Virus record (IMG/VR): IMGVR_UViG_3300046048_000188
Location: 1 to 23,467 of that record
Source of the DNA: a virus
DNA length: 23,467 nt
Direction: 5' to 3' (one strand)
The notes under the pieces are model-generated. The model saw only the letters and a list, made by a program, of their open reading frames with translations. It ran no database searches and was not told the DNA's origin. The translations under genes were made by a program, and so were the position numbers. Below, in pieces: positions 1 to 19,303 of the stretch. How positions within the stretch are numbered: position 1 is the stretch's first letter; every line of letters begins with the position of its first letter.

Positions 1-16
1 AGCGAAAGATGTGACA

Positions 17-39
17 TAACGTGATGGTACATTACGTTA
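17..39. repeat. 23-bp imperfect inverted repeat
   Basis: The arms TAACGTGATG (17-26) and CATTACGTTA (30-39) are inverted complements with one mismatch, separated by 3 bp. It lies about 110 bp upstream of the first candidate promoter and differs in sequence from the CCTTAACATGTTAAGG family, so it may be a separate regulator site. Function is unknown. Confidence 0.45.
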
Positions 40-147
40 AATACCCACAAGCTCCAATGCGCCGAGCGTGATTATGTAACATTCACATGGCACGTGGCAG
101 ACTGTCGGATTTCTTTACAGCATTGAATCGTTGAGAACACTGGGGAT

Positions 148-176
148 TTGACATAGACCGGGGGTTATGCTAGCGT
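148..176 (+). promoter_or_regulatory. Candidate early promoter P1 (sigma70 type, extended -10)
   Basis: A consensus -35 TTGACA (148-153) is followed after 17 bp by TAGCGT (171-176), a poor -10, but a TG dinucleotide at 168-169 supplies an extended -10. Predicted start is near 183. The operator palindrome at 207-222 would lie about 25 nt into the transcript. The promoter would drive the gene at 487 through a leader of about 300 nt. Inferred from motif and spacing only. Confidence 0.45.
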
Positions 177-206
177 GTGTGTGTCGGGATTCTTTACACT
201 TCCGTA

Positions 207-222
207 CCTTAACATGTTAAGG
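207..222. promoter_or_regulatory. Operator-like palindrome copy 1
   Basis: Perfect 16-bp palindrome CCTTAACATGTTAAGG, about 25 nt downstream of the predicted start of promoter P1. First of 11 copies in the window. Confidence 0.8.
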
Positions 223-269
223 CTATGCGGAAACCTCAATAGAATCAGACACTTGCAATGTTGGCACGC

Positions 270-293
270 GTCCTGCATACTCTTGGGCAGGAC
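270..293 (+). other. Leader hairpin
   Basis: GTCCTGC (270-276) and GCAGGAC (287-293) form a perfect 7-bp stem around a 10-nt loop in the presumed leader of the first gene. There is no U-run after it, so it is not an intrinsic terminator. It could stabilise the leader or be part of a regulatory RNA fold. Confidence 0.35.
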
Positions 294-486
294 ACAATGC
301 ACCCATCCGCGCGGAAGGCAACGCGCGAGCGCGATCCCGGTTCCGGCCGGGTAGCTTGACCCGACGTTCTTTAACAAAATGCAGCACAAGGTAGACCGCG
401 CGCGCGGAATGGCGCGTTGCGGCTCTCTGTGGCTATCGGGTAGCAATTCCGCTATGCCGATACGTACAAACCACTCGGAGTACATT

Positions 487-1107
487 ATGTCTACTTTCAA
501 AAAGTCGATCCTGTCGAAACTCCACGCTTTCGCGACGGCGCAGCACAAGGCGGACGAAACGGCCCGCACTGCGTTCCGGTCACTGGTAGCGGCGGCGATC
601 GTGGCCAAGACTGAGGATGTGTTCTCGCAACACGTCACCGAGTTTTACCGCGAGATTCGCGAGAACGTGGACGGTTTCGCTGAGTCAATCGGCGCCGAAA
701 AAGGCGAGAACGGTTTCACCGTTCCCGGCTCGATCATGGCGCAGGTTTCTCAGGTAAAACGCGCCCTCAAGCTAGGCGTGGACCTCGGAACCGAAAAGGC
801 GCCGAAAGGTCCGGGAGAGGTCCGCAAGGCGACCTCGGAAGCCGCAAAAAAGGCGCAGCCGACAGACGCGGCAGACGCGGCAGACGCGGGCACACTGAGT
901 CTCACGCCAGCACAGCAAGAGGATCTGCGGATTCGCACTGCTGCACTGGATGCGCTCAGGGACGCGGAAAAGGCCATCAAGAACGCGGAAGGCAACACGC
1001 TCCGCGCGATGGTGGAAGCCGTGACCGAGTTCGCAGGCAACATGCTCGCGATTCTCGGTGAACCTTCGGAAGCCGACAGTGCCGACGATGTCGCAGACGC
1101 GGCGTGA
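487..1107 (+). CDS. Hypothetical early protein, Ala-rich (206 aa)
   Basis: Not recognised. The first gene of the window, read from candidate promoter P1 and closed by the strong terminator at 1145-1178, so it appears to be its own transcription unit and probably an early protein. The ATG at 487 is chosen because GGAG (477-480) sits 6 nt upstream; an in-frame ATG at 379 has no SD. The N-terminal part is basic and helical (MSTFKKSILSKLHAF), the middle has a short Asp-Ala-Ala repeat encoded by three tandem 9-bp units CAGACGCGG (863-889), and the C-terminal half is Ala/Glu-rich with likely long helices and an acidic end. No Cys-based or enzymatic motif is visible. It could be a soluble host-interaction or DNA-associated protein, but nothing shows this directly. 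Confidence 0.8.
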   Translation: MSTFKKSILSKLHAFATAQHKADETARTAFRSLVAAAIVAKTEDVFSQHVTEFYREIRENVDGFAESIGAEKGENGFTVPGSIMAQVSQVKRALKLGVDLGTEKAPKGPGEVRKATSEAAKKAQPTDAADAADAGTLSLTPAQQEDLRIRTAALDALRDAEKAIKNAEGNTLRAMVEAVTEFAGNMLAILGEPSEADSADDVADAA

Positions 1108-1118
1108 CGCGTAGGGCG

Positions 1119-1134
1119 CCTTAACACGTTAAGG
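1119..1134. promoter_or_regulatory. Operator-like palindrome copy 2 (variant centre)
   Basis: CCTTAACACGTTAAGG has one central change from the canonical form. Flanking CG and CG extend the symmetry to 20 bp (1117-1136). It lies between the stop of the first gene and its terminator, with 10 nt separating it from the terminator stem. Confidence 0.7.
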
Positions 1135-1144
1135 CGACATAAGA

Positions 1145-1178
1145 GGGCGGGAGCCGAAAGGCTCTCGCCCTTTTTTTT
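1145..1178 (+). terminator. Rho-independent terminator after first gene
   Basis: An 11-bp stem (1145-1155 with 1160-1170, one G-U pair) is capped by a GAAA tetraloop and followed by eight T (1171-1178). This is a textbook intrinsic terminator for the gene at 487-1107. Confidence 0.93.
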
Positions 1179-1301
1179 CGCCTTTCGCGCGCGCATTATG
1201 TCATCACGCCCGGTTCTTTTGATCTTCGCGCGGGCGCGCGTGGATTGCCGGGAGCGGTCTAAGGGTGCCGTAAATTTCAGGGGGGGTTCTAAACAGGCCG
1301 C

Positions 1302-1330
1302 TTGCTATTATGTGAAATACGTGTTATAAT
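1302..1330 (+). promoter_or_regulatory. Near-consensus sigma70 promoter P2
   Basis: TTGCTA (1302-1307), 17-bp spacer, perfect TATAAT (1325-1330). Predicted start near 1337, which places the operator 1373-1388 about 36 nt downstream. This is the best promoter in the window and the likely entry point for the array starting at 1411, recognised by host RNA polymerase. Confidence 0.7.
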
Positions 1331-1372
1331 AGTCGGGTAAGTGGGAATTCGCCGTCCTTGCCCATTTGCGAT

Positions 1373-1388
1373 CCTTAACATGTTAAGG
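1373..1388. promoter_or_regulatory. Operator-like palindrome copy 3
   Basis: Perfect CCTTAACATGTTAAGG between promoter P2 and the first gene of the long array, ending 22 nt before its ATG. Confidence 0.85.
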
Positions 1389-1410
1389 TCGGCTCGCTAG
1401 GGGAAATAAA

Positions 1411-1509
1411 ATGAACGCTATCTGGTGGCTTTTGGTCTGGTGTGCAGTGTCGGTCCCGGCGTCACTGTTCATTGGTGCTTTCATCCGCTACGGGAGCGGT
1501 GAGGACTGA
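1411..1509 (+). CDS. Small membrane protein (32 aa)
   Basis: Very short gene with a good SD (AGGGGA, about 1399-1404) and an ATG at 1411. The product, starting MNAIWWLLVWCAVS, is one hydrophobic helix (roughly residues 3-25) ending in a short charged tail (RYGSGED). No family recognised. It is the first gene after promoter P2 and is followed after 3 nt by another tiny membrane protein, which suggests a co-translated pair. Evidence is start, SD, operon position and hydrophobicity only. Confidence 0.6.
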   Translation: MNAIWWLLVWCAVSVPASLFIGAFIRYGSGED

Positions 1510-1512
1510 GCC

Positions 1513-1647
1513 ATGGAGTTCATCCTGTTGCTGGTGCTGTTCATCCTGTTCCCACGGTTCACATTCTCAATGGTGGCACTCGTGCTAACAGTGGTGTTCG
1601 TGCTTCCGACGATCCTGCTCCTAGCCATGGCGCTAGGCTGGCTCTGA
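1513..1647 (+). CDS. Small hydrophobic membrane protein (44 aa)
   Basis: ATG at 1513 with GTGAGG (about 1500-1505) upstream, inside the end of the preceding tiny gene. Almost the whole product is hydrophobic, with two stretches (about residues 3-13 and 19-43) separated by Pro-Arg, so one or two membrane helices. No family recognised. It could be an early inner-membrane protein; nothing ties it to lysis. Confidence 0.6.
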   Translation: MEFILLLVLFILFPRFTFSMVALVLTVVFVLPTILLLAMALGWL

Positions 1648-1649
1648 CC

Positions 1650-2015
1650 GTGAGGCACGTTACGCGAACCGGGCGTGCGCTCAGGCACGGGCGCACGACC
1701 CGGAAATCCAAGGACGTGAAGCGGCCGGGGGTCAAACCCTTGCCGCTGCACTTGCAGTGCCATCCGCAATACCTCCACCGCACGCCCATACATCCGGGCT
1801 GTGCGACGTTCGAGAATCAGGTGGGCGGGCTGTTCGCTGTACAGCCGATGGCCGCCCTGTTGTACGGAATCGGGCGCGGGCTGCAATCGAGCGGTCCCGT
1901 GACCGTGGAAGTCGTGGGGAAGGGTACTTGGTACGCCCCTAACCTCACGTATGCTTGGGCGTGGAAACGCGCAGCCGAGCGAACCAAGCTGTACCGTGTC
2001 AACGTGTATCCTTAA
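1650..2015 (+). CDS. Hypothetical basic protein (121 aa)
   Basis: GTG start at 1650, 2 nt after the previous stop. No strong SD is seen, so coupling to the preceding gene is likely. The N-terminal 30 residues are rich in Arg/Lys/His; the C-terminal half (about residues 70-121) contains a Gly-rich hydrophobic segment (ALLYGIGRGL) and a Trp/Tyr-rich end. Not recognised. The TAA stop (2013-2015) lies inside the operator palindrome at 2010-2026, one of two genes that end within this element. Confidence 0.6.
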   Translation: MRHVTRTGRALRHGRTTRKSKDVKRPGVKPLPLHLQCHPQYLHRTPIHPGCATFENQVGGLFAVQPMAALLYGIGRGLQSSGPVTVEVVGKGTWYAPNLTYAWAWKRAAERTKLYRVNVYP

Positions 2016-2026
2016 CACTGTTAAGG
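2010..2026. promoter_or_regulatory. Operator-like palindrome copy 4 (17-bp variant)
   Basis: CCTTAACACTGTTAAGG has both arms intact with one extra C at the centre. It supplies the stop codon of the upstream gene and its right arm runs into the SD (AAGGGAAGGA) of the gene at 2039. Confidence 0.8.
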
Positions 2027-2038
2027 GAAGGAACTGAC

Positions 2039-2263
2039 ATGCCGGAAATCAAACCCAACCTCACTGCCAACGAAGCCGTGAAGATCGACTGCCTGTGCGG
2101 TCGCATCTTGGGGGACGTGGGCAGCATCCATGCCCGGATCAGCGCGGAGCAGGCGGACGGTCGTGTGGCGCCCATGTCGCACGAACTCGTGTCCATGCGT
2201 CGGTACGTCCGGGAGTTGCAGGACTCCGTGAGGGAGTTGTATCCTCACGCCTTCTTCAAGTGA
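2039..2263 (+). CDS. Hypothetical protein (74 aa)
   Basis: ATG at 2039, 12 nt after the operator whose right arm begins the SD. In-frame codons upstream to 1955 are rejected because they overlap the previous gene and lack an SD. The product (MPEIKPNLTANEAVKIDC...) is small, mixed-charge and probably helical, with two Cys near residues 18-20 and a C-terminal helix of RELQDSVRELY type. No family recognised. Confidence 0.7.
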   Translation: MPEIKPNLTANEAVKIDCLCGRILGDVGSIHARISAEQADGRVAPMSHELVSMRRYVRELQDSVRELYPHAFFK

Positions 2264-2272
2264 GGGAGTGCC

Positions 2273-2482
2273 GTGACCCGTCGAGTCCGAATCAGGCGCA
2301 ATACGTGGGAGCGCACCCGGCGCCCGCGTAATTGGTCGCCCTACCTGTTCTACGACGATTCGCCCGTGGCACAGCATGTGCCGCGTCGCGACGCGCCCGT
2401 AGATGTTCCCCCGCTTGGCGTTGCGTGGGAGGAATACGAAGATGAGCAGCGCCTTAACATGTTAAGGAGCAAGCCATGGTAG
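2273..2482 (+). CDS. Hypothetical basic protein (69 aa)
   Basis: GTG start at 2273 preceded by GAGGGAG (2262-2268), which overlaps the previous stop. The N-terminus is strongly basic (TRRVRIRRNTWERTRRPRN) and the second half acidic. The C-terminal residues LNMLR are encoded by the operator at 2452-2467, and the gene overlaps the next start by 7 nt (its TAG is at 2480-2482, the next ATG at 2476). No family recognised; the basic N-terminus would allow nucleic-acid binding. Confidence 0.6.
   Translation: MTRRVRIRRNTWERTRRPRNWSPYLFYDDSPVAQHVPRRDAPVDVPPLGVAWEEYEDEQRLNMLRSKPW
2452..2467. promoter_or_regulatory. Operator-like palindrome copy 5
   Basis: Perfect CCTTAACATGTTAAGG, translated as LNMLR at the end of the upstream 69-aa gene. 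Its right arm forms part of the SD (AAGGAG, 2464-2469) of the gene at 2476. Confidence 0.85.
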
Positions 2483-3432
2483 ACGAAACTACCACCACAG
2501 AACCCCAGTATCTCGGAGTCCTGCCTCTCGTTCAGTACCGCTACCCGTGGGAGTTGTTGGCCGAGCGCCGCTACTACGGGGGGAACGCAATGTTCCAGAT
2601 CTGGCACCCTGCCTATTCGGTGTGGACGTTCAGCCTCAAGAAAGCCGGAGGGCACGTCGTCGATGCCGTGCTCGAAATGGCGGGAATCGGCCAGATGCTC
2701 TACGACTTCTGCGGCGGCGTTCTCACGTCATCCCCGTACATCGGGGTGTTCGAGGTCCCGGAGTTCGACCCGCGCAGCGTGTGGGCGAAGAACTGGCGCA
2801 GGGGCTGGTCGGCGTACACGCTCGGGAACGAGTTCCCGCCCACGGACAGGTCCAAGAGCCAAGTCGCCAACGAAACGGAGCGGCAAAAGCTGTTCTCGCT
2901 GCTCCCTGACTCCGAGAGCTTTATCGGGCCGGGACCGTTCACGATGGCGCAGATTCGCGAGATCGGGGCGAAGTCCATCTTCGGCTACCTAGCCGCGTTT
3001 GCCGGGGGGTCGATGAGGCGTGGAATCTTCGGGGCTGACAGGTACTCGCGCGATACCGAGTTGCGCGACGTGCTCAGGATCGGAGTCAAGAACCTACAGG
3101 GATGGTTCTGCAACGTCCCGCGCGTCGGGTTCTTCAAGCACGGCAGCGGGGAGCGCATTGCTGCGCGGTCCACGGCTTCCGGGAACAAGCGCGAGTGGCA
3201 GCACTGCTTTACTCCGGGTAACTACACTCCCGGACGCAGGTACCGCAACGCGAACTCGGGCGCCAGTGTTTCGATGACGGGCGCGATCCTGCCTGACATC
3301 TGGAGGGATCGCGCTTCCCCACAGTACGGGGTGGCCGAGGCTCTGGCTCGCTGCTCTACTACTGAGTGGATGAAGATGTCAACCGAGTGGTATGCGGGGC
3401 TCATGCCCCTTGATCTGCTTCACAACGGCTAA
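2476..3432 (+). CDS. Hypothetical protein, first gene of amidoligase cassette (318 aa)
   Basis: ATG at 2476 with a strong AAGGAG 6 nt upstream, overlapping an operator palindrome. Not recognised. The protein is rich in Trp, Tyr and Gly, has no signal peptide, and contains one moderately hydrophobic stretch near residues 60-85 (DAVLEMAGIGQMLYDFCGGV) that is more likely a buried helix than a membrane segment. The C-terminal third carries basic and aromatic residues (QHCFTPGNYTPGRRYRNANS). The gene lies directly before the phiEco32-type amidoligase in the same direction, both behind an operator copy, so a role in the same pathway is a reasonable inference. It could be a substrate, partner or separate enzyme. 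Confidence 0.8.
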   Translation: MVDETTTTEPQYLGVLPLVQYRYPWELLAERRYYGGNAMFQIWHPAYSVWTFSLKKAGGHVVDAVLEMAGIGQMLYDFCGGVLTSSPYIGVFEVPEFDPRSVWAKNWRRGWSAYTLGNEFPPTDRSKSQVANETERQKLFSLLPDSESFIGPGPFTMAQIREIGAKSIFGYLAAFAGGSMRRGIFGADRYSRDTELRDVLRIGVKNLQGWFCNVPRVGFFKHGSGERIAARSTASGNKREWQHCFTPGNYTPGRRYRNANSGASVSMTGAILPDIWRDRASPQYGVAEALARCSTTEWMKMSTEWYAGLMPLDLLHNG

Positions 3433-3449
3433 CCTTAACACTGTTAAGG
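3433..3449. promoter_or_regulatory. Operator-like palindrome copy 6 (17-bp variant)
   Basis: CCTTAACACTGTTAAGG, identical to the copy at 2010. It starts right after the TAA of the upstream gene, and its right arm runs into the SD AAGGAAGGAG (3446-3455) of the amidoligase gene. Confidence 0.8.
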
Positions 3450-3461
3450 AAGGAGATTACT

Positions 3462-4316
3462 GTGGCTCGCAAGAAAAAGGCTGCGATAACGATGGGCGCG
3501 GACCCGGAGTTTTTCGTGCGTCGAATCGACACTGGTGCTCCGCACCCGATCTGTGGTCTGCTCGGTGGGACCAAGGATCGCCCGAGAATGGTCGGGCACT
3601 ACGGGTTGCAAGAGGACAACGTGATGGCGGAGTTCAACATCCCGCCCGTCACGGACATCAATCTGTTCTCGGCCCACATCACCAGTGGCCGCAACACTGT
3701 GCTCTCGATCCTCAACTCGGAGCACGGTGGCATCTTCGAGATTGATCCCGCACCGTCACGCCTGTTTCCCTCGTTCCACCTGCGCTCGGAGCAGGCCAAC
3801 ATGTTCGGGTGCAGCCCGGACTTCGACGCTTACATGCTCGGCGCCCCGAATCCACGCATCCAGCCGCTTGAGTTGGAGCGCCCGGAGGGGTCGTGGAGAT
3901 TCTGTGGCGGGCACATCCACATCGGGTACAAGACAGTCGCGCCGGATCTCCCGGAGTACGTGGCTGCCATGTTCTGCGATCTGTTCCTCGGGATCGGCAT
4001 GGTCTCGAACAACTTCGACAAGCAGGGCGAGCGTCGCCGGTACTACGGGACGCCCGGCAGATTCCGCCCGACACCCTACGGGCTGGAGTACCGCACCCTG
4101 TCGAACTTCTGGACGCACAGCCCCATGATGGTCGAGACTGCCGGCTACTACGTGGATGCGTTCGGCAGGTTCATCGCTCACGGCGATGCGGCCATCAAGA
4201 AGTATTGGGCAGAGGTACCGTGGCAGGACGTGCGACGGGCAATCAGTGAGGAGCGAGCAGACCTAGCCCACTCGCTTGTCACCTACGTTCGCGGGCTGGG
4301 GATGGAGGAGCTCTAA
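3462..4316 (+). CDS. phiEco32-type COOH-NH2 ligase (amidoligase)
   Basis: Predicted ATP-dependent ligase of the glutamine synthetase/GCS fold that joins a carboxylate to an amine. Visible motifs: N-terminal GADPEFF (residues 12-18, acidic metal/ATP ligands D14 and E16), AEFN (E57), the HxH motif in GGHIHIG (149-155), and YGTPGRFRPTPYGLEYR (195-211), whose Arg residues would contact phosphates. The length (284 aa) and motif order fit the phage COOH-NH2 ligase family named after phiEco32. GTG start at 3462, 6 nt after AAGGAAGGAG. Its stop overlaps the next start (TAATG), so it is coupled to the GGCT-like gene. Conserved phage clusters of amidoligase with GGCT, GAT-II and ATP-grasp have been predicted to make or attach peptides; the substrate is unknown. 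Confidence 0.88.
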   Translation: MARKKKAAITMGADPEFFVRRIDTGAPHPICGLLGGTKDRPRMVGHYGLQEDNVMAEFNIPPVTDINLFSAHITSGRNTVLSILNSEHGGIFEIDPAPSRLFPSFHLRSEQANMFGCSPDFDAYMLGAPNPRIQPLELERPEGSWRFCGGHIHIGYKTVAPDLPEYVAAMFCDLFLGIGMVSNNFDKQGERRRYYGTPGRFRPTPYGLEYRTLSNFWTHSPMMVETAGYYVDAFGRFIAHGDAAIKKYWAEVPWQDVRRAISEERADLAHSLVTYVRGLGMEEL

Positions 4317-4714
4317 TGCCTATCCGGGTATTCGTCTACGGCACCCTCAAGCAGGGGCATGGGAACAATCGGTTGCTGGAGAACTCGAAGTTCCTCGGCC
4401 GTTGCTACATCGAGGGTCCGTGGAGACTCATCAACCTCGGAGCCTATCCGGGCCTCGTTGAGATCCCGAAGATCGAGTTCGCGAAGGTGCTCGGTGAGGT
4501 CTATCAGGTGGACTTGGACACCTTGCAGTCGCTCGACTGGCTGGAAGGACACCCGAGGTACTACCGACGGGACAAGGTGGCAACGCCGTGGAAGAACGCA
4601 TGGGCGTACTTCCTGCCCGAGGACTACATCGAGAAGTACCCACTCGTGGACAAGGTGTGGGAACCGAGCGATGTTGAGACCGAGTTCATGAGGGGCACGT
4701 CATGCGGTTTGTAG
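4316..4714 (+). CDS. Gamma-glutamylcyclotransferase-like protein (GGCT/AIG2 fold)
   Basis: Members of this fold release 5-oxoproline from gamma-glutamyl amines or cleave related amide links. Signatures: VFVYGTLKQGHGN (residues 5-17, the YGTL substrate loop), GEVYQVDLDTLQSLDWLEG with the probable catalytic Glu at residue 77, then HPRYYRR. At 132 aa it is a complete single-domain protein. The ATG overlaps the stop of the amidoligase gene by 1 nt. In this setting it most likely edits, recycles or trims the gamma-glutamyl-type bond made by the neighbouring ligases (inference). Highly confident on fold, less on substrate. Confidence 0.88.
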   Translation: MPIRVFVYGTLKQGHGNNRLLENSKFLGRCYIEGPWRLINLGAYPGLVEIPKIEFAKVLGEVYQVDLDTLQSLDWLEGHPRYYRRDKVATPWKNAWAYFLPEDYIEKYPLVDKVWEPSDVETEFMRGTSCGL

Positions 4715-5010
4715 CACACATCTGCATGAGGCCGAACGACGGCAAGCCCACGTTCACGGTCGAGACCGAGTTCGATGCAGACAACTGGCACGCTGCATGG
4801 CAGCACTGCATGGGACTTGGCACGAAGTTCAACGCTGTGGTACTATCCCACAGGCTGAACGCCAAGGACGAGGCGAAGGGAGCGGTCAAGTACCTGCCGC
4901 CCCCAGCCGCGCCCGCAAAGCCAGCGGAACCGACGGTGCCCGAGTGGGCAACGAAGGTGTCACTTGACCCCGTTGCGGTGCTACCGTGGCCCGCAACCTT
5001 AACATGTTAA
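4702..5010 (+). CDS. Hypothetical protein (102 aa)
   Basis: ATG at 4702 within the last 13 nt of the GGCT-like gene, with GAGGGG upstream. The first 65 residues look like a compact alpha/beta domain (RFVAHICMRPNDGKPTFTVE, then an aromatic helix), followed by a Pro/Ala-rich linker (about residues 66-82). The TAA stop (5008-5010) lies inside the operator at 4997-5012, so the last residues (LTC) are encoded by the palindrome. Not recognised. Overlap with the GGCT gene suggests co-translation with the cassette. Confidence 0.65.
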   Translation: MRFVAHICMRPNDGKPTFTVETEFDADNWHAAWQHCMGLGTKFNAVVLSHRLNAKDEAKGAVKYLPPPAAPAKPAEPTVPEWATKVSLDPVAVLPWPATLTC

Positions 5011-5012
5011 GG
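4997..5012. promoter_or_regulatory. Operator-like palindrome copy 7
   Basis: Perfect CCTTAACATGTTAAGG. It provides the TAA stop of the upstream 102-aa gene, and its AAGG begins the SD AAGGAGG (5009-5015) of the gene at 5020. Confidence 0.85.
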
Positions 5013-5019
5013 AGGATCC

Positions 5020-5667
5020 ATGCTCACCATCCCACGGGACGTGAACCCACGCGACATCGAGCAGTGGTGCAGCAGTGGCGTTGTCATGTATCAAACACCC
5101 GAAGCCACCCTTGCGGGATGGTACCTCGGGTGCACACCGTCACGGACGATCACGGTCATGCCGATAACCGGCGGGGAGCACGTGCTGGTTCCGGCCGCGC
5201 AGGTTGCCGTGCATTGGCCCATGTGCGGGAGCGTCAACATTCGGGGCAAGCCGTATGCGGCCCACGTGGAGCGGCTGACTCAGCGTCAGTACCGCAGGAC
5301 GTGGCACCGTGCGGGTGTCAAGGTCGTGATCCCTCGCGAGTGGGACGTGACCCGGCACATGTCCGGGATGATGCACACGCTGTCGCCGTCCGACACGGAG
5401 CTAGCGCTGGCCTGCTTCGAGCCTGAGTACCCGACGCTGGAGACTGCTCTCTCCATGCTGGACTCCGGCGATGTCGTGACGGTAGCGACAAGTCCGCGCC
5501 TCATCGTGGCGGGGGATGCGCTCGGCAAGCGCATGTTCTACTACAACGGGGAGTTGGCAGCCACGGCGACTGCTAACAACGAGTTGTTCCCGGTCGGGGA
5601 CGAGGCACTGGTTCGCCGCATCATCAAGCTCACGGAGGGACGGTATCATGCCCGCACGTATCGTTGA
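5020..5667 (+). CDS. Hypothetical protein between the two amidoligases (215 aa)
   Basis: ATG at 5020 closely behind AAGGAGG, which overlaps the operator. Not recognised. The sequence suggests a mixed alpha/beta soluble protein with a beta-rich first third (VVMYQTPEATLAGWYLG, RTITVMPITGG) and a basic stretch in the middle (RLTQRQYRRTWHRAG). There is no Cys cluster, signal peptide or membrane segment. The gene overlaps the second amidoligase by 20 nt, which suggests translational coupling and a role in the same pathway, perhaps as a partner or accessory domain. No enzymatic motif is visible. Confidence 0.75.
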   Translation: MLTIPRDVNPRDIEQWCSSGVVMYQTPEATLAGWYLGCTPSRTITVMPITGGEHVLVPAAQVAVHWPMCGSVNIRGKPYAAHVERLTQRQYRRTWHRAGVKVVIPREWDVTRHMSGMMHTLSPSDTELALACFEPEYPTLETALSMLDSGDVVTVATSPRLIVAGDALGKRMFYYNGELAATATANNELFPVGDEALVRRIIKLTEGRYHARTYR

Positions 5668-6682
5668 GTACGCTCGACGCCGCACGATTGACCCGCAGGG
5701 GGTGCCTCTGTACGGCATGGAGGTCGAGCTCGAAGGGATGACCGCAGAGTTCGCAGTCAACGAGGTCACGTGGCCGAGGTCGTTGTCTCGCAACTGGCGA
5801 TTCGTTCAGGACGGCTCGCTTCGGGAGGGGATGGAGCTTGTGTCCGCCCCGCTGAAAGAGGACGCACTGATCGAGGCTGTAGAGGTTTTGTACACCGAGG
5901 TACTCGGGAGTGGGCGTGGCATCCACCCGTCTGTGCGGACGGGCATCCACATCCACGCTGGCTGCCTTGAGATGGACACCGATCAGGTGCTGCGCGTCTG
6001 CCAGCACTACGCATTGGTCGAGCCGCTGCTGTTCGCGTTCGTGTCAGAGTGGCGGGACGAGAACATCTACTGCATCCCGTGGTACCGCTCGCACAGTGAG
6101 CCGAAGGCTGTCTACAGGTGGCTGTCGAACCTCGCCGAGTGGGAGGAGCGCCCGCCCGTCTGCAAGTACAGCGCACTGAACACCGGGCCGCTATCCTCGT
6201 TCGGTACCATGGAGTACCGACACGCGCCCACGTTCGAGCAGGTGGAACTGGCGAAGCAGTGGGTCCGCATCGTGGCTCGCCTGCACAACACGTACACCAC
6301 AACCTACGACGTGCTCGCAGAGTGGGAGAGGCTCGGGCCTGCCGGCTTCGCAGCGATGGTGTTCGACGGGATGAACATGCCCATCGTACTGAGCCGGGAC
6401 TACGAGGCGCTCGACGTAGATCGGGTGGCCGAGTACCTGCGCCCGAGGAAGGACGTGGCGCACGATGGATGGGGGCTGCCGCCGCAACTGGCAACGGGTG
6501 GCGTGGTAGCGGCTGGCCCGACCCCGCGTAGGAATACGCTGCGCGGGCTGAGGTACGCCGACCTGAACCTCGGCAACGTGTTCGTTCGGGAGCTCACGCC
6601 CGACGATCCCATAGAGGAGGAGGAGATGCGTGAGTTCGAGGAGTCGTACAGCAGGGACGACGAGGACGAGGAGGAGTTCTAA
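5648..6682 (+). CDS. Second amidoligase (Amidoligase_2-like, 344 aa)
   Basis: Distinct from the phiEco32-type ligase but of the same ATP-grasp-independent glutamine synthetase-like fold. Motifs: GMEVELEG (residues 23-30, metal-binding Glu pair), DGSLREGMELVS (55-66, E63 in the core), the HxH motif TGIHIHAG (98-105), KYSALN (173-178) and GTMEYRH (186-192, conserved Arg). The C-terminus is a very acidic tail (about residues 317-344). The ATG at 5648 is chosen for GGAGGGA (5634-5640) 7 nt upstream; longer in-frame starts lie wholly within the preceding gene. It is followed by an operator and the GAT-II gene. The glutamine amidotransferase may supply ammonia or handle a glutamine side chain for this ligase (inference). 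Substrate unknown. Confidence 0.82.
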   Translation: MPARIVEYARRRTIDPQGVPLYGMEVELEGMTAEFAVNEVTWPRSLSRNWRFVQDGSLREGMELVSAPLKEDALIEAVEVLYTEVLGSGRGIHPSVRTGIHIHAGCLEMDTDQVLRVCQHYALVEPLLFAFVSEWRDENIYCIPWYRSHSEPKAVYRWLSNLAEWEERPPVCKYSALNTGPLSSFGTMEYRHAPTFEQVELAKQWVRIVARLHNTYTTTYDVLAEWERLGPAGFAAMVFDGMNMPIVLSRDYEALDVDRVAEYLRPRKDVAHDGWGLPPQLATGGVVAAGPTPRRNTLRGLRYADLNLGNVFVRELTPDDPIEEEEMREFEESYSRDDEDEEEF

Positions 6683-6688
6683 GATGAA

Positions 6689-6704
6689 CCTTAACATGTT
6701 AAGG
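6689..6704. promoter_or_regulatory. Operator-like palindrome copy 8
   Basis: Perfect CCTTAACATGTTAAGG between the second amidoligase and the GAT-II gene. The right arm is the 5' end of the SD AAGGAAGGAG (6701-6710). Confidence 0.85.
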
Positions 6705-6718
6705 AAGGAGCGAAGCGT

Positions 6719-8230
6719 ATGTGTGGAATAGTTGGTTTCATCACAGACGAAAGGTCTGTTGGCGCACATGAGCGCAAGAAGTTCTTCATCAATGCGCTAC
6801 TCGCTGGGGTGGTGCGTGGTGACGACGGCACCGGAGCGTTCTTCGTGCCGCATGATGGGGAGGGGTCGGCGGATTGGGCCAAGCAGGGCTCACACGCCAG
6901 CGACTTCCTAGCCTGCGACAAGGCACAGGAACGACTCGGGTACGGCAAGAACTTCGACCGCTACCGTGCAGTCATCGGGCACAACCGATCCGCTACCGTC
7001 GGCAAGGTCAGCACCGAGAACGCCCATCCGTTTCAGGAGGGGCCGATCACGCTGGTCCACAATGGGACGTTGCACAACACCATCGACTTGCCGAAGGGAC
7101 GCACGGATCTCAAGGGCGTTGACGTGGACAGCCACATCATCACCCACAACCTCGCAACCCACGATGCGGAGGAGGTCATCAGCAAGCTGGACGGAGCGTT
7201 CACCCTGATCTGGCACGATGCGCGGGACCAGTCGGTCAACATCGTGCGCAACGACAAGCGCCCCATCCACATCATGCAGGTCGGTTGTGAGAAAACTTTG
7301 CTAATCGCTAGCGAGGCAGAGATGCTGTCGTGGCTGGTTGCACGGTCTTCGTTCAGAGCCGGGCCGATCTACTACCCCGAGCCGGGGCAGTGGTTGAAGT
7401 TCACCAAGGAACACGGGATCGTTCCCGCTGTCAAAAAGGTGTCCCTTTACGCACCCAAGTACGGTGGGTACTACGGGAAAAGCCGGGGGTACTACGGGGG
7501 ATACGGGGGATACGGAGACTACTGGGAGGACGACACCGACCACCCTTGGTACAACGGCCGTGGACGCGCTTATAGCCCTGCTGAGTCTGGTGCTACCGGA
7601 GACTCCAAGGGAAAAGCGGCAACGTCGGAGACGGGAGCGACGACGCGGCCGCAAGTGAAGCTCCCGATCAAGGCGCGGAAGCTGCTGGACACAGTGGCAC
7701 TGATGCCGGAGGACAAGCTGCGGTTTCATGTGGTGGGGATTCAGCGGGTGCTGGGTACCGGCTACGCAAACGTAATCGGGAGACTGGTCGATTTGAACCG
7801 ACCCGGTATCATCCACGGGATGAAATTACTCGACACCGAGAACGCACTCGGACAGACGTGGACGGTCCATCCGATTGTGCCGAAGGTCCTGAGTGGTACC
7901 GGAGGCTCAAGGAACGAGTTGCTGGTATGCAACCTGCTCACCAAGAGAGTCACGTTCACGACCGAGCCCCTACCTTCCTCGACATCGTCACGGGACGTAC
8001 CCACTGACGACGACGTTGACTACGACTACACGGACGTGCCCTTCATGGACATGCAGGGAACACTGATCACGTATGCCGAGTGGTTGGAGAAGGTGTCGTG
8101 TGGATGTAAATATTGCCGCGAAGTCCCGGACCCTGAGTTCGCGGATGACATGGCATGGGACCCATCGGGCGAGCCGATCTGCGCTGACTGCCGGTGGGAT
8201 CTGGAAGGCGAAGTAGCGAGGCCATTCTAA
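6719..8230 (+). CDS. Class II glutamine amidotransferase, multidomain (503 aa)
   Basis: N-terminal Ntn-hydrolase glutaminase domain (about residues 1-235). MCGIVGF presents the catalytic Cys2 once Met is removed, followed by RGDDGTG (33-39), GHNRSAT (87-93), NAHPF (101-105), LVHNGTL (112-118) and VDSH (136-139). These are the GAT-II (GlmS/PurF-type) glutamine-binding motifs, so it should release ammonia from glutamine. A Tyr/Gly-rich low-complexity linker follows (248-268), then a disordered Ser/Thr/Ala-rich stretch, an unrecognised domain (about 315-420) and a C-terminal putative zinc ribbon (CKYC 463-466 and CADC 488-491). No known acceptor (sugar isomerase, PRTase, asparagine synthase) domain is present, so the ammonia acceptor is probably made by the neighbouring amidoligases or ATP-grasp protein. 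ATG at 6719 with a strong SD. Confidence 0.9.
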   Translation: MCGIVGFITDERSVGAHERKKFFINALLAGVVRGDDGTGAFFVPHDGEGSADWAKQGSHASDFLACDKAQERLGYGKNFDRYRAVIGHNRSATVGKVSTENAHPFQEGPITLVHNGTLHNTIDLPKGRTDLKGVDVDSHIITHNLATHDAEEVISKLDGAFTLIWHDARDQSVNIVRNDKRPIHIMQVGCEKTLLIASEAEMLSWLVARSSFRAGPIYYPEPGQWLKFTKEHGIVPAVKKVSLYAPKYGGYYGKSRGYYGGYGGYGDYWEDDTDHPWYNGRGRAYSPAESGATGDSKGKAATSETGATTRPQVKLPIKARKLLDTVALMPEDKLRFHVVGIQRVLGTGYANVIGRLVDLNRPGIIHGMKLLDTENALGQTWTVHPIVPKVLSGTGGSRNELLVCNLLTKRVTFTTEPLPSSTSSRDVPTDDDVDYDYTDVPFMDMQGTLITYAEWLEKVSCGCKYCREVPDPEFADDMAWDPSGEPICADCRWDLEGEVARPF

Positions 8231-8997
8231 TGCGAACACGAATCCGTATTCTCCCGTACCGAACGGGGTCGAGCAGCGTCCGTGCCCTGTCACGGGCGAC
8301 TGGACTGCGCCGGATCAACCTTAACATGTTAAGGTTCCGGCCTCGCCCGTCCGACCTGATCCTGAATTGGGGAGCGCACTGTCCTCCCCCGGACAAGGGA
8401 TACTGCGACGCACGGTGGGTGAACCACTGGTCCGCTGTCTCGGTGGCCCGCAACAAGGTGCTGACTCTCATGGAGTTCGACGCCCATGCGGTGCCCACTC
8501 TGGAGTGGACCGTGAACCCGGACGTGGCGCAGCAGTGGTGGAAGGACGGGGCCGACGTTGTAGTGCGTGGCACCACAACCGGACAGGGCGGGGCAGGCAT
8601 CCGCCTCATCACGCAGGGCGATGCCATTGCCGAGTGGCCGCTCGCTCCGCTGTACACGAAGTACGCCAAGAAGCGCACCGAGTACAGGCTGCACGTGTGG
8701 CGTGGCGATCTGCTGGACATTCAGGAGAAGCGCAGACGCAGCGGGAGCGAGGCTGACTCCCGCATACGCAGCTACGACAACGGCTGGATCTTCGCCCGTG
8801 AGAACGTGGCTGTGCCCGAGTGCGTGTCCAAGGCTGCGGTAGCCGCAGTCAATGCGCTCAATCTGGACTTCGGGGCTGTCGATGTGGGGTACAACGCACA
8901 CTACGACAGGCCCATTGTGTTCGAGGTCAACACCGCTCCCGGCCTCGAAGGAACTACGTTGGAGCGTTATGCGGAGAAGGCGAAAGAACTACGATGA
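8230..8997 (+). CDS. ATP-grasp ligase (255 aa)
   Basis: Predicted ATP-grasp enzyme, coupling a carboxylate to an amine through an acyl phosphate. Features: N-terminal IRILPYRTGSSSVRALSRA (residues 5-23) and ILNWGA, then VVRGTTTGQGGAGI (the Gly-rich ATP loop), TEYRLHVW, and the metal-binding end FGAVDVGY...FEVNTAPGLEGTT (Asp, Glu and Asn ligands). The ATG at 8230 overlaps the GAT-II stop (TAATG). The operator at 8319-8334 lies inside the gene and is translated as LNMLR (residues 32-36) in what looks like a variable loop between two parts that belong together. The stop overlaps the next start. It completes the amidoligase/GGCT/GAT-II/ATP-grasp set. Confidence 0.87.
   Translation: MRTRIRILPYRTGSSSVRALSRATGLRRINLNMLRFRPRPSDLILNWGAHCPPPDKGYCDARWVNHWSAVSVARNKVLTLMEFDAHAVPTLEWTVNPDVAQQWWKDGADVVVRGTTTGQGGAGIRLITQGDAIAEWPLAPLYTKYAKKRTEYRLHVWRGDLLDIQEKRRRSGSEADSRIRSYDNGWIFARENVAVPECVSKAAVAAVNALNLDFGAVDVGYNAHYDRPIVFEVNTAPGLEGTTLERYAEKAKELR
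8319..8334. promoter_or_regulatory. Operator-like palindrome copy 9 (inside ATP-grasp gene)
   Basis: Perfect CCTTAACATGTTAAGG embedded about 90 bp inside the ATP-grasp reading frame, in the only frame of the element without a stop codon. Confidence 0.85.
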
Positions 8998-9308
8998 TGA
9001 GCAATGCAGAAAGACTTCGACTGATGGCTAACGGGTGGGGTCGCTGCGGGCATGGCCCGGTGACGACGATGTACCCGGAAGGCATGACAGTCGCACCCGG
9101 CAAGCCGGGCACTGAGCCTCTGACTTTCAGTGAGGCAGACGAGGCGGAGTTTCGTGCAGTGAAGGATGCCTACGTAGCACGGCAGCCATCCCTCACGTAC
9201 AAGGAAGACCGTCCCGTTTCCCGTATCGGAGAGGACGAGGATGCCGACACGTTCGCAGCAGATGACGGCACGATACCCGTCGATCTGGAGGAGACTGACA
9301 GTGAGTAA
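8994..9308 (+). CDS. Hypothetical acidic protein (104 aa)
   Basis: Starts ATGATG at 8994; the first ATG overlaps the ATP-grasp stop as ATGA, and the second (8997) is equally possible. The product has a Gly/Cys-containing N-terminal stretch (MANGWGRCGHGPVTTMYPEG) and an acidic C-terminal half (EDEDADTFAADDG). Not recognised. It overlaps the sigma-like gene by 8 nt, so it is co-translated with both neighbours. Confidence 0.65.
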   Translation: MMSNAERLRLMANGWGRCGHGPVTTMYPEGMTVAPGKPGTEPLTFSEADEAEFRAVKDAYVARQPSLTYKEDRPVSRIGEDEDADTFAADDGTIPVDLEETDSE

Positions 9309-9909
9309 CATCCTCGACAACTTGACTCCGCACATGGAGGCGGCGCGTACCGTTGCCGTCAACATGGTCGGGCCGCAGGATGCGGATGACGTAGTGCAGG
9401 AAGCTGTGCTCTCTCTGGCCAAGCGCGTCGAAGCCGACGGGGTGGAGGCCGAAGTGAACTGGCTCGCCCTGTTCCTGCGGTACACCCAATGGGCCGGGCT
9501 GGACTGGCTCAAGAAGCAGCGGGAGATCGCGCACTTCGAGGGCACTGCACTGGAACCAGACGGGCCTAGCTCGGGGGACGGACGCTTCGTCAGTGAAGCG
9601 GACGAGGACGGAGGGCGATTGACCAGCCCCGACAGGCACACACCCGCATGGCCCACAGCCATCGAACGGACCACGCCGGAGGACATCGTGACAGCAGCGC
9701 AACTGCGTGATTTGATTAGGGAAATTGCGGTGCAGCATCACGGCGCACGTGACTACGCGATCTTCTGTGCGGTGGTGATGGACGGCATCGGGCAGGCGCG
9801 CGTTGCGAAGGAGCATGAGATGTCGCAAGGGCGCATCAGTCAGGTAGTTCAGGACGTGCGGGGGACGCTGATGCGAGAGATCGGCGAAGTTTTTTCTGCC
9901 AAAAACTAA
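9301..9909 (+). CDS. ECF-like sigma factor (202 aa)
   Basis: Predicted RNA polymerase specificity factor. Region 2 lies at about residues 10-75, with the typical DADDVVQEAVLSLAKR (27-42, regions 2.1/2.2 that contact the core enzyme) and an aromatic promoter-melting segment (WLALFLRYTQWAGLDWL). A long acidic linker (about 85-125) follows. Region 4 (about 128-195) ends with a helix-turn-helix (IGQARVAKEHEMSQGRISQVV) that would read a -35 element. GTG at 9301 is chosen for GGAGGAG about 8 nt upstream. phiEco32, whose amidoligase type is also present here, is known to carry an ECF sigma for its later genes; a similar role for the leftward virion genes is an inference. The family is divergent, but the two-domain order is clear. 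Confidence 0.75.
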   Translation: MSNILDNLTPHMEAARTVAVNMVGPQDADDVVQEAVLSLAKRVEADGVEAEVNWLALFLRYTQWAGLDWLKKQREIAHFEGTALEPDGPSSGDGRFVSEADEDGGRLTSPDRHTPAWPTAIERTTPEDIVTAAQLRDLIREIAVQHHGARDYAIFCAVVMDGIGQARVAKEHEMSQGRISQVVQDVRGTLMREIGEVFSAKN

Positions 9910-9919
9910 TAATTTTGGC
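9888..9919 (+). other. Two mutually exclusive stem-loops at the end of the sigma gene
   Basis: AGTTTTT (9888-9894) can pair with AAAAACT (9901-9907), while GCCAAAA (9898-9904) can pair with TTTTGGC (9913-9919). Both use 9901-9904, so only one can form. They span the sigma stop codon (9907-9909). Stems are AT-rich and weak. Possible attenuator-like switch or simply AT-rich spacer. Confidence 0.35.
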
Positions 9920-9943
9920 GTTAACTTCTTCTATAACTATAGT
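9915..9943 (+). promoter_or_regulatory. Candidate promoter P3 with palindrome over the -10
   Basis: TTGGCG (9915-9920), 17-bp spacer, TATAGT (9938-9943), in the only markedly AT-rich gap of the window. A perfect 12-bp palindrome TAACTATAGTTA (9934-9945) covers the -10, and TTAACT (9921-9926) is repeated inverted as AGTTAA (9941-9946). It would start transcription of the replication block near 9950. Motif-based only. Confidence 0.5.
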
Positions 9944-9973
9944 TAATTCGTTTGCGTAACGAGAACAAAAACT

Positions 9974-10087
9974 ATGACGAGCGTAGCATTAGCGTTAGGA
10001 ATTGGGATTCTGACTATCATCCTGATAGTCCTCTTACTCCGCATCGCAGCGGCGTGTTGGATCCTATGGGTATTGTTCCGTGACTAG
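9974..10087 (+). CDS. Small membrane protein (37 aa)
   Basis: ATG at 9974, first reading frame after candidate promoter P3, with only a weak SD (AACGAG). The product is a single membrane helix (about residues 4-35, GIGILTIILIVLLLRIAAACW) with almost no soluble part. It overlaps the next gene by 8 nt. No family recognised. Confidence 0.5.
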   Translation: MTSVALALGIGILTIILIVLLLRIAAACWILWVLFRD

Positions 10088-10307
10088 CCCTGCACTGTAT
10101 GGGCAGGGCGACGAAGTCACGTGGACGGAAACGACCTGCAACGGCGACACGCTGGAACGATGCGGATGCATCGTGTCCGTACTGTCGGCTCAGTACCTCG
10201 TCGAGTGCGACGATGCCCTGATCCGATTCGTATTCAAGAACGACTCAACCTTGAAGGAGAAGAAAGTTGAACGACGGCCGCACAAAACATTCACCACGGC
10301 GCAGTAA
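10080..10307 (+). CDS. Hypothetical protein (75 aa)
   Basis: GTG at 10080 inside the end of the preceding membrane-protein gene, probably coupled to it since no clear SD is seen. The sequence has the look of a small beta-barrel: QGDEVTWTET, a CNGD turn, CGCIVSVLSAQYLVECDDALIRFVF, then a basic tail. The pattern resembles KOW/SH3-like small phage proteins, but this is a guess. It overlaps the next gene by 41 nt. Confidence 0.6.
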   Translation: MTSPALYGQGDEVTWTETTCNGDTLERCGCIVSVLSAQYLVECDDALIRFVFKNDSTLKEKKVERRPHKTFTTAQ

Positions 10308-10503
10308 CCTGACGTACGGCAACTACCGTAGCCTGCGCCAGATGTACCTTGCGCTCAAGCCTGACATGACATACCTCGCATTCTACAAGCGGGTCAAGGC
10401 AGGCATGAAGCCCGAGGACGCAGCGGCTGCGCCGAAGTCCACCCGAGGGCGCAAGCGTCGGCGCCCCCTGCCTTGGGAGAACGCAAGTGAAACACAAGCC
10501 TGA
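10267..10503 (+). CDS. Putative small DNA-binding protein (78 aa)
   Basis: TTG start at 10267 with a strong AAGGAG (10254-10259) 7 nt upstream, which decides the start. The product is very basic. Residues about 20-52 (RSLRQMYLALKPDMTYLAFY, then KRVKAGMKPEDAA) resemble the short helix-turn-helix modules found in phage proteins and next to HNH nucleases, where a -TYxxFxxRVxxGxxPEDA- pattern recurs. It ends with a polybasic RGRKRRR segment. It precedes the primase, so a role in replication or regulation is possible. Fold inferred from pattern only. Confidence 0.6.
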   Translation: MNDGRTKHSPRRSNLTYGNYRSLRQMYLALKPDMTYLAFYKRVKAGMKPEDAAAAPKSTRGRKRRRPLPWENASETQA

Positions 10504-10603
10504 TCTGTTCAGTGTCATAGTCATCCTGTCGCTCGGTGCGCTGCTCATCTCTGCGTTCCTGCTGATGGCGTCGAAGGTGCCCGGAGCAGCGTTCCTGCCA
10601 TGA
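10487..10603 (+). CDS. Small membrane protein (38 aa)
   Basis: GTG at 10487 with GGGAGA 6 nt upstream. Short charged N-terminus (KHKPD) then one hydrophobic helix (about residues 8-29) and a short tail. It overlaps the gene before by 17 nt, and its TGA overlaps the primase ATG (ATGA). Function unknown; possibly a membrane anchor or regulator expressed with the replication genes. Confidence 0.5.
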   Translation: MKHKPDLFSVIVILSLGALLISAFLLMASKVPGAAFLP

Positions 10604-11394
10604 GCGAGAGGGCACAGCTTGCGCTAGATGCTGCGGCACTGGAGCCGGGAACATCCGTCCGCATGGTGTGTCCGTTCTGTCGAGGAGGTAGATCGAATGA
10701 AGCCTGCATGGTACTCACGCATGGCGACGACGGGGCTCTACTCTTTGTCTGCCACCGTGCTCACTGTGGCGCTAGTGGTCGGCTTGGGGGCGGGCCTGTT
10801 GTGCGCCGGCCCGACCGTCGCCCGACCCGAACGCGCACTCTGCCGGAGGATCTGGTTGTCACCGACCTACCCGAGGACGTGCAGTCCGAGCTCAGACGAC
10901 GATGGCACTTCGACATCGCACCGCTGAGTTGGAAGTGGGCGGATGAGTGGCAGCGGCTCCTGTTCCCCGTGCGCAGCCGGAAGTGGAAGCACCGAGGCTG
11001 GCAGGCACGGGCACTGGACAAGGGGCGGCAGCCCAAGGTCCTGACGTTCAGGGAGACCGAGGACGGGCCGTTCATCCACTGGACGGGGGATGGCTCAGCG
11101 GCCATCGTGATCGTTGAGGACATCCCGTCTGCGGAGCGGCTGGCTGCACTAGGCTACCGAGCCTGCGCCCTGCTGGGTACGCACATGGACGACGAGGCGC
11201 AGCAGGAGATTGTGGACGAGGCCCGCAGGACCGAGGCGCAGTTGTACGTTGCGCTCGACCGGGACGCAATCCGCAAGACGCTGGCGTACCGGGAGTCCCT
11301 TGGGATGCTGGTCCCTGCGCTGGCTGTGCTGGTGCAGAAAGACTTCAAAGACATGACTGACACGGAGATAAGCGATTGCATGAACGCAACCTGA
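10600..11394 (+). CDS. DNA primase, zinc-finger plus TOPRIM (264 aa)
   Basis: Stand-alone primase equivalent to the primase half of T7 gp4. N-terminal zinc finger: C24-x2-C27 with C51 and C56 (CPFC ... CHRAHC) for template recognition. TOPRIM domain: IVIVEDIPSAERLAALG (about residues 169-185, E173/D174) and YVALDRDA (216-223, D220/D222), the metal-binding acidic residues. It synthesises RNA primers for lagging-strand replication and should act with the helicase encoded next. ATG at 10600 overlaps the previous stop, and the 3' end overlaps the helicase start by 19 nt. The zinc-finger and TOPRIM signatures make this call secure. Confidence 0.92.
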   Translation: MSERAQLALDAAALEPGTSVRMVCPFCRGGRSNEACMVLTHGDDGALLFVCHRAHCGASGRLGGGPVVRRPDRRPTRTRTLPEDLVVTDLPEDVQSELRRRWHFDIAPLSWKWADEWQRLLFPVRSRKWKHRGWQARALDKGRQPKVLTFRETEDGPFIHWTGDGSAAIVIVEDIPSAERLAALGYRACALLGTHMDDEAQQEIVDEARRTEAQLYVALDRDAIRKTLAYRESLGMLVPALAVLVQKDFKDMTDTEISDCMNAT

Positions 11395-19262: not shown

Positions 19263-19303
19263 AAAAACCCCCGCTCGGGCAACCGGGCGGGGGTTCTTCG
19301 TTT
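19263..19303. terminator. Bidirectional terminator between convergent units
   Basis: A 13-bp GC-rich stem (19266-19278 with 19283-19295) around a GCAA tetraloop. On the minus strand it is followed by a run of five T (complement of 19263-19267); on the plus strand by a weaker TTCTTCGTTTC. It separates the rightward replication genes from the leftward lysis/virion genes. Confidence 0.9.

Follow-up and report, generated by a model that had tools for sequence, protein, structure and literature searches.

What does a phage make with two amidoligases, an ATP-grasp ligase and a glutamine amidotransferase that are encoded side by side? The question is raised by a 23,467-base IMG/VR virus record (IMGVR_UViG_3300046048_000188), which is called the window below. 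A phiEco32-type COOH-NH2 ligase (CN), a gamma-glutamyl cyclotransferase (GGCT), an Amidoligase_2 protein (AM2), a class II glutamine amidotransferase (GAT-II) and an ATP-grasp ligase (ATPG) are all encoded on one strand at positions 3462-8997 (Pfam and PHROGs), and the window is one more copy of the described phiEco32/LUZ24-type amidoligase cassette. The cassette looks intact, and we consider it rather probable that it serves a brief pathway in the cytosol during early infection, namely ATP-driven amide or peptide synthesis with gamma-glutamyl editing. A conserved gene located 5' of AM2, here called Y, is by family and position a sixth cassette gene, newly recognised here.

The same five activities have been described in a seven-gene "peptidoglycan modification cassette" with a gamma-glutamyl amidoligase, a second amidoligase, an ATP-grasp enzyme, GGCT and a glutamine amidotransferase (PMC5498523, section 16). 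It is listed for RIO-1, phiEco32, 7-11, PA11, tf, MR299-2, LUZ24, PaP3 and CW02; "three unusual linkages" are proposed as its work, and superinfection exclusion is given as a hypothesis (PMC5498523). Some of the genes are treated in the available parts of PMC6209634, PMC3890496, PMC10945688, PMC10580990 and PMC3517423, and no cassette gene terms were found in that of PMC9960094. A proven product was not found in the available parts of the literature on the cassette genes, in agreement with the first-pass annotation of the window, which knew of no established product.

Enzyme identity and conserved residues

The five enzymes that the first-pass annotation had placed in one array are all where it put them. 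CN matched COOH-NH2_lig with 30.9 bits (Pfam cut-off 25) and the COOH.NH2 ligase family of PHROGs (9e-50), GGCT matched GGACT (PF06094) with 76 bits (cut-off 22.8) and gamma-glutamyl cyclotransferase in PHROGs (2e-18), and GAT-II matched GATase_6 with 61.8 bits (cut-off 27) and phrog_4736 (5e-67). The open reading frame (ORF) ending at 6682, AM2, reached 25.1 bits with Amidoligase_2 (cut-off 22) and 3e-21 with a PHROGs amidoligase; a genome scan of the record with the Amidoligase_2 model gave no candidates at first look, which counts against this assignment.

Columns were counted as conserved when they were the same in at least 90 % of the aligned rows (19 rows for ATPG, 22 for CN and 21 for AM2). 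The window agreed with 23 of 23 such columns in ATPG, 30 of 31 in CN and 20 of 20 in AM2. The conserved ligase residues are intact, and the cassette looks intact as a whole. By homology, the most probable start codons are ATG 8230 for ATPG, which overlaps the stop codon of GAT-II and lies upstream of a palindrome at 8319, and ATG 5648 for AM2.

ATPG matched phrog_2599, named "ribosomal protein S6 glutaminyl transferase", at 3e-71. Its sole Pfam match, R2K_2, stayed at about 17.5 bits, below the cut-off of 26.2, and membership of the R2K clade of ATP-grasp ligases was therefore rejected. Among solved structures its profile was nearest to alpha-L-glutamate ligases (7qyr 4.8e-11, 5zct 1.1e-10, 4iwx 1.2e-10). 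ATPG is related in sequence to RimK and the alpha-L-glutamate ligases, and from these relatives the addition of glutamate to a C terminus can be predicted. The cassette could then tag a host protein with a peptide or glutamate, in the style of RimK and ribosomal protein S6, and so redirect host machinery. The nearest relatives of ATPG and the S6 name of phrog_2599 are in favour of this, and tagging by phage ATP-grasp ligases has been proposed, in the available part of the literature, for another clade, R2K. However, ATPG falls under the R2K_2 cut-off, two GCS-type ligases and a GGCT suit small-molecule chemistry equally well, and no target was seen, so that tagging seems unlikely to us.

In GAT-II the amidotransferase models lie in the N-terminal part, within residues 83-203 of 503 (Pfam). 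Only glutamine amidotransferase models were matched at E <= 0.1 and no SIS domain was found, which speaks against a sugar aminotransferase; the PHROGs name "L-glutamine-D-fructose-6-phosphate aminotransferase" is misleading, as there is no sugar-isomerase match. A C-x2-C...C-x2-C pattern occurs within the last 130 residues in 69 of 110 homologues, the window included, and no synthase domain was recognised.

In LUZ24-like and phiEco32-like phages a protein of about 72-77 residues is encoded directly 3' of GAT-II, with V-x-R-[KRG]-x-P-[MF]-T and L-R/I-R motifs seen by eye (comparison loci L014 11380-11598, L015 11946-12167, L020 9995-10228, L025 7985-8218, L023 8622-8840 and L031 10853-11071). 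The window has no small gene directly after GAT-II. Small genes near ATPG were also considered as carriers similar to LysW; among 17 proteins read there was no consistent combination of a zinc ribbon and a C-terminal glutamate, and the idea was not supported. PA11 gp10, a small protein near ATPG, is cysteine-rich.

Occurrence in other phages

In a tblastn search of 50,697 phage records, in which some phages occur twice, 310 records were matched by CN, 313 by GAT-II, 309 by ATPG, 176 by AM2 and 96 by GGCT, all below 60 % identity. The lower counts for AM2 and GGCT may stem from faster divergence. For comparison, 18 annotated stretches were picked from the match lists for diversity, and viral contigs were taken by ATPG and CN queries (3, the best 80 of 592 and the best 80 of 466). 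All 182 sources scanned, including the window and leaving out L001-L010, carry some cassette gene, and 128 have both CN and ATPG. Reduced at 80 % ATPG identity, these gave 111 non-redundant loci, in which CN and ATPG are universal by selection.

GAT-II was found in 110 of the 111 loci, AM2 in 108, Y in 85, GGCT in 63 and a peptidase C26 in 61; GGCT and C26 were both present in 25 and both absent in 12, many of the latter being incomplete at the locus ends. The search for the gene set in other phages that the first-pass annotation had suggested thus returned a known and recurrent combination. The pairing of two amidoligases, which it had thought unusual, is the rule in loci chosen for CN and ATPG. 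The CN query (A6) further matched 16 loci of metagenome-assembled genomes, on contigs of at most 57 kb, which are taken for phage contigs; ten of them have CN, Y and AM2 together.

Gene order varies among the relatives. The nearest one found, L112 (IMGVR_UViG_3300027900_000013), has the same order as the window, including GGCT and the genes X and Z (Table 1), and a Y that is 48 % identical; it differs in having its own repeated palindrome. The LUZ24/PaP3/UFV-P2-like and Bjorn Pseudomonas phages share the order CN, Y, AM2, GAT-II, ATPG, with Y annotated as hypothetical, but their GGCT follows ATPG and the protein before CN has no similarity to X detectable with single-sequence hhalign. The phiEco32-like phages SU7, Cronobacter A24 and Vibrio Vp_R1 also have these five genes in order, whereas their GAT-II and ATP-grasp proteins are longer and GGCT lies farther downstream (SU7, Vp_R1) or was not found in the stretch (A24). 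In the Zobellviridae CW02, PA11 and Klyazma all five are present, but GAT-II precedes CN and a peptidase C26 is present, together with GGCT in CW02 only. RIO1 and PSA-HP1 resemble the window in having GGCT, GAT, two amidoligases and ATP-grasp among early and replication genes (PMC5498523); the order in PSA-HP1 is different, with GGCT (40), GAT (42), amidoligase (43), second amidoligase (46) and ATP-grasp (47).

A stretch of the phage ZRK32 record (L024) carries CN, Y, AM2, GAT-II, ATPG and GGCT. For this phage an auxiliary role in nitrogen metabolism has been suggested, in which the genes would help the infected cell to bring ammonia into amino acids; the available part of PMC10945688 names GAT, amidoligase, glutathione synthase and GGCT and reports growth promotion of Pseudomonas. 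The growth effect is not linked to these genes in that part of the paper, and ammonia assimilation calls for less than a pair of specialised ligases, Y and so strict a set of genes. We regard such a role as highly improbable.

Gene Y

The list of enzymes in the first-pass annotation held for its five named genes but overlooked Y (5020-5667). In all of the 21 sources with CN and AM2 that were examined first (the window, L011 and L013-L031) an ORF of 173-241 residues belonging to one family lies between the two genes. The Y of L024, which had been excluded from the corresponding profile, scored 1.5e-19, and the window Y was found at 2.2e-33 by a 72-sequence profile built without it. In each of the 85 non-redundant loci having Y it lies between CN and AM2, and in 82 of them its end overlaps the start of the AM2 ORF or is at most 30 nucleotides (nt) away (median -3 nt), the spacing being approximate because starts were taken as the first possible codons. 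PHROGs splits the family among unknowns: phrog_4877 (two of four tested), phrog_11055 (one of four) and, weakly, phrog_33384 (L112). Searches with the window Y in phage records and with the L112 Y in genome contigs gave no relatives; single-protein searches are insensitive here, since relatives of X and Y turned up later by profile.

The predicted model of the window Y has a predicted local distance difference test (pLDDT) score of 94.2 and a predicted template modelling (pTM) score of 0.88. Foldseek returned nothing significant with it (best E 0.027); a row for 2d6f_A (E 0.059, not significant) was looked at for a GatCAB/GatDE-type relation. VIA-align gave tied rows with Z of 5.3-6.9, mostly covering residues 1-131 and including many Tudor-like barrels, and the first part of the modelled Y resembles SH3/Tudor-like barrels. 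Besides the start, R89 is the sole residue conserved in 90 % of the 72 rows, and because of this a role of Y as a partner or substrate binder seems more likely than one as a catalyst. In a bolder version, Y would be an obligate non-catalytic subunit of AM2 and form with GAT-II a hitherto unrecognised glutamine-dependent amidotransferase complex, analogous to the Gat systems and not part of them, in which the Y barrel holds a macromolecular substrate, AM2 activates its carboxylate and GAT-II gives ammonia. This we hold to be a speculative and decidedly improbable proposal.

A proposed gamma-glutamyl step

The first-pass annotation had assigned GGCT a trimming role. Such trimming or editing is plausible, and is strengthened because a peptidase C26 tends to replace GGCT in other loci. 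Sixty-two loci are well flanked, extending by over 3 kb past the outermost cassette gene at both ends; GGCT occurs there without C26 in 26, C26 without GGCT in 17 and the two together in 16, so that one or both are present in 59. A G-[IV]-C-R-G pattern occurs in 59 of 61 C26 members, and both C26 proteins that were tested exceed the cut-off of Peptidase_C26 (PF07722), a family that includes gamma-glutamyl hydrolase. GGCT and peptidase C26 thus cleave gamma-glutamyl groups as two unrelated families, and their tendency to stand in for one another is the best evidence found here that a gamma-glutamyl intermediate may exist.

Peptidoglycan contains a gamma-glutamyl bond. By introducing three unusual linkages, the cassette could remodel the stem peptides of peptidoglycan, alter the host surface and block superinfection, a proposal that is compatible with the pathway favoured here and names its target. 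It was put forward in PMC5498523 and is cited in the available part of PMC10580990, and the most frequent host genera named in the CN, GAT-II and ATPG record counts are Gram-negative. On the other hand, no experiment was found in the available parts of the literature, and no cassette gene of the window matches a cell-wall enzyme in Pfam or PHROGs. We regard peptidoglycan as a possible target, if a somewhat doubtful one.

Organisation of the locus

The cassette genes of the window follow the order CN, GGCT, Z, Y, AM2, GAT-II, ATPG (Table 1). On the 3' side are ORFs for a primase (10600), a DnaB-like helicase (11376), a DNA polymerase (12584), an exonuclease and an endonuclease, and this position upstream of primase/helicase and polymerase genes is that of the phiEco32/LUZ24-type cassette.

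Table 1 Genes of the cassette region and palindromes in the window
Feature	Position	Strand	Remarks
X	2476..3432	+	318 residues; no Pfam or PHROGs match
CN, phiEco32-type COOH-NH2 ligase (PF14395)	3462..4316	+	Pfam, PHROGs, conserved columns
GGCT, gamma-glutamyl cyclotransferase, AIG2-like (PF06094)	4316..4714	+	Pfam, PHROGs
Z	4702..5010	+	102 residues; no assigned family
Y	5020..5667	+	215 residues; conserved partner gene 5' of AM2
AM2, Amidoligase_2 (PF12224)	5648..6682	+	Overlaps end of Y; Pfam, PHROGs, conserved columns
GAT-II, class II (Ntn) glutamine amidotransferase	6719..8230	+	Pfam, PHROGs; C-terminal zinc-ribbon-like pattern
ATPG, predicted RimK-like ATP-grasp ligase	8230..8997	+	PHROGs, profile search, conserved columns
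Palindrome	207-222
Palindrome	1119-1134		Before terminator-type hairpin
Palindrome	1373-1388
Palindrome, 17-nt variant	2010-2026
Palindrome	2452-2467		Before X
Palindrome, 17-nt variant	3433-3449		Before CN
Palindrome	4997-5012		End of Z, before Y
Palindrome	6689-6704		Before GAT-II
Palindrome	8319-8334		Inside ATPG coding sequence
Palindrome	12592-12607
Palindrome	19236-19251		Before terminator-type hairpin

X and Z were seen solely in the lineage of the window. X occurs in nine other fetched stretches (L112, L032, L033, L134, L034, L035, L038, L039 and L163, of which L032 and L134 are one contig), and in all ten, the window included, it lies at most 58 nt from the start of the CN ORF. F-C and N-x-N-S residues are invariant in eight aligned X proteins. 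The X family has no convincing match in Pfam, the window X as a single query found no relatives in phage records or viral contigs, and AlphaFold gave no usable model (pLDDT 37). Kinship with the protein preceding CN in phiEco32-like and LUZ24-like phages was not supported in a weak hhalign test of ten candidates, mostly single sequences, with probabilities below 1 % for eight, 2.8 % for SU7 gp088 and 16.5 % for QDWS535 orf 44. For Z a relative was found in L112 only (1.3e-17).

ATPG is followed by a small ORF at about 8994-9308, which nothing assigns to the cassette; it forms part of a longer ORF (8820-9308) that matched neither Pfam nor PHROGs. The ORF at 9241-9909 is sigma-factor-like, with Sigma70_r2 at 17.9 bits, under the cut-off, and a weak KORA match in its C-terminal part (Pfam); it has one relative among the fetched loci, in L112 (1.1e-21).

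The neighbouring genes also bear on a further reading, in which the product is a DNA base hypermodified with amino-acid or amide groups. Amide-bearing phage bases exist, and a thymidylate synthase or thymidylate synthase complementing protein lies near the cassette in two of the 18 annotated stretches. Most of these stretches, which are short and largely annotated as hypothetical, list no such gene, and there is no base-modification gene among the window proteins scanned, which covered part of the ORFs. Base modification appears scarcely credible to us.

Palindromes and promoter-like sites

Eleven palindromes in the window have exact CCTTAAC/GTTAAGG arms around the centres AT (8), AC (1) and ACT (2), and there is no further place within two arm mismatches at spacings of 0-6. 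With up to three mismatches the 16-mer gives nine matches, against 0.04 expected. The six sites from which the first-pass annotation had read tight control of the cassette are real, but such control does not follow: 5 of the 11 palindromes lie at or in the cassette, which is not more than expected from its length (binomial p = 0.19; p = 0.34 over positions 1-19251). The palindromes extend across the region of rightward genes and pertain to the early region in general rather than to the cassette. A terminator scanner lists the hairpin 19266-19295 after the palindrome at 19236; that after the palindrome at 1119 is not listed, yet has a 15-pair stem followed by U's (-28.8 kcal/mol, z = -4.4).

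Different repeated palindromes are found in L112 (CGTTAAC-s-GTTAACG), L032, L034, L163, L115, L143, L107 and L089; L040 and L058 have one in common, as do L163 and L039 and also L107 and L082, and several loci share a GTACGTAC-like palindrome centre. Thirteen of 109 non-redundant loci of at least 9 kb carry at least five copies of one palindrome, and a fetched locus holds as many as 18 copies when one mismatch is allowed; ten shuffles per locus gave at most two copies among the 45 loci listed. Some sites that differ in sequence agree in position between loci: at the helicase-polymerase boundary they precede the polymerase domain by 64 nt (window) and 66 nt (L112), at the N terminus of ATPG they lie 10 nt (window), 10 nt (L115) and 20 nt (L032) ahead of the domain, and L032, L034 and L039 have a site at CN model position 75-77. 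These coincidences are given without a chance estimate, and many other sites have no matching position. Exact 16-mer copies turned up in 10 viral-contig stretches, at a single place in each, and are taken as chance matches. The whole looks like a dispersed operator system in which a putative binder and its sites change together. The many dispersed copies, often at gene boundaries, resemble mycobacteriophage stoperators; those are asymmetric and oriented with transcription, whereas the window sites have exact inverted-repeat arms in 11 of 11 cases. In a literature search on the palindromes the term stoperator was absent among the matches listed.

A sigma-54-type consensus, TGGCACG-N4-TTGCW, was seen 5' of the cassette with one mismatch in the window (262-277, + strand) and in L112 (429), and without mismatch in L032 (4144, 4270), L163 (575, 652) and L038 (4029, 4068, 4116). 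At one mismatch or fewer there are 10 sites, 7 of them perfect, in 18 chosen loci (296 kb), with 2-7 matches in each of five shuffles, and 21 sites, 4 of them perfect, in 97 other loci (1.53 Mb); L034, L035 and L039, which carry X, have none. For phage early genes, control by RpoN would be out of the ordinary. A literature search for sigma-54 or RpoN with phage and podovirus found no papers.

Discussion

From the families of its enzymes the chemistry of the cassette may be pictured as follows. GAT-II would release ammonia from glutamine. CN, and AM2 with Y as its partner, being ligases of the glutamine-synthetase/GCS type, would convert carboxylates to acyl phosphates and couple these to an amine or to ammonia, with at least one gamma-glutamyl bond among the products. 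ATPG, as a RimK-like enzyme, would append an alpha-linked amino acid, probably glutamate, and GGCT, or peptidase C26 in the relatives, would trim or edit gamma-glutamyl groups. Two ligases of separate families and an ATP-grasp enzyme could account for as many as three amide or peptide bonds made at the expense of ATP, as the first-pass annotation had reasoned; the idea is already contained in PMC5498523. The order of the reactions and their early timing are likewise suggested by the families. What the sequences display directly is which genes are present, their conserved residues, order and linkage, the positional pairing of Y with AM2 and the alternation of GGCT with C26.

Several points weigh against this pathway. 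The sequence data presented here do not reveal a substrate or product, and the CN and AM2 profiles had no match among solved structures at E <= 1 (PDB sequence search). No Y was matched in 26 of the 111 loci. AM2 is present in 23 of these 26, and in two of the 23 it is preceded by a similarly sized ORF, neither of which scores with the Y model. The well-flanked loci L013, L093 and L109 have neither GGCT nor C26, and the Fisher values for their replacement (p = 0.0008 in the 62 loci, p = 0.0002 in all 111) overstate its significance and are a guide only, because related loci are not independent. Over 49 loci, the Spearman correlations of distances were 0.32-0.53 among cassette proteins and 0.27-0.44 between cassette proteins and phage DNA polymerase, and in every pair the observed value was reached by none of 200 permutations. 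Since the two ranges are similar, no co-evolution beyond common descent is visible, and common descent explains the linkage of the cassette as well as shared function does.

The amidoligase cassette is present in about 310 phage records and has been mentioned repeatedly in print, yet no proven product was found in the available parts of this literature. The ATP-driven pathway with gamma-glutamyl editing can now be approached through concrete handles, namely Y, its coupling to AM2 and the substitution of GGCT by peptidase C26, which make the function of the cassette testable. In a cassette that is otherwise described, Y is the most useful new lead.

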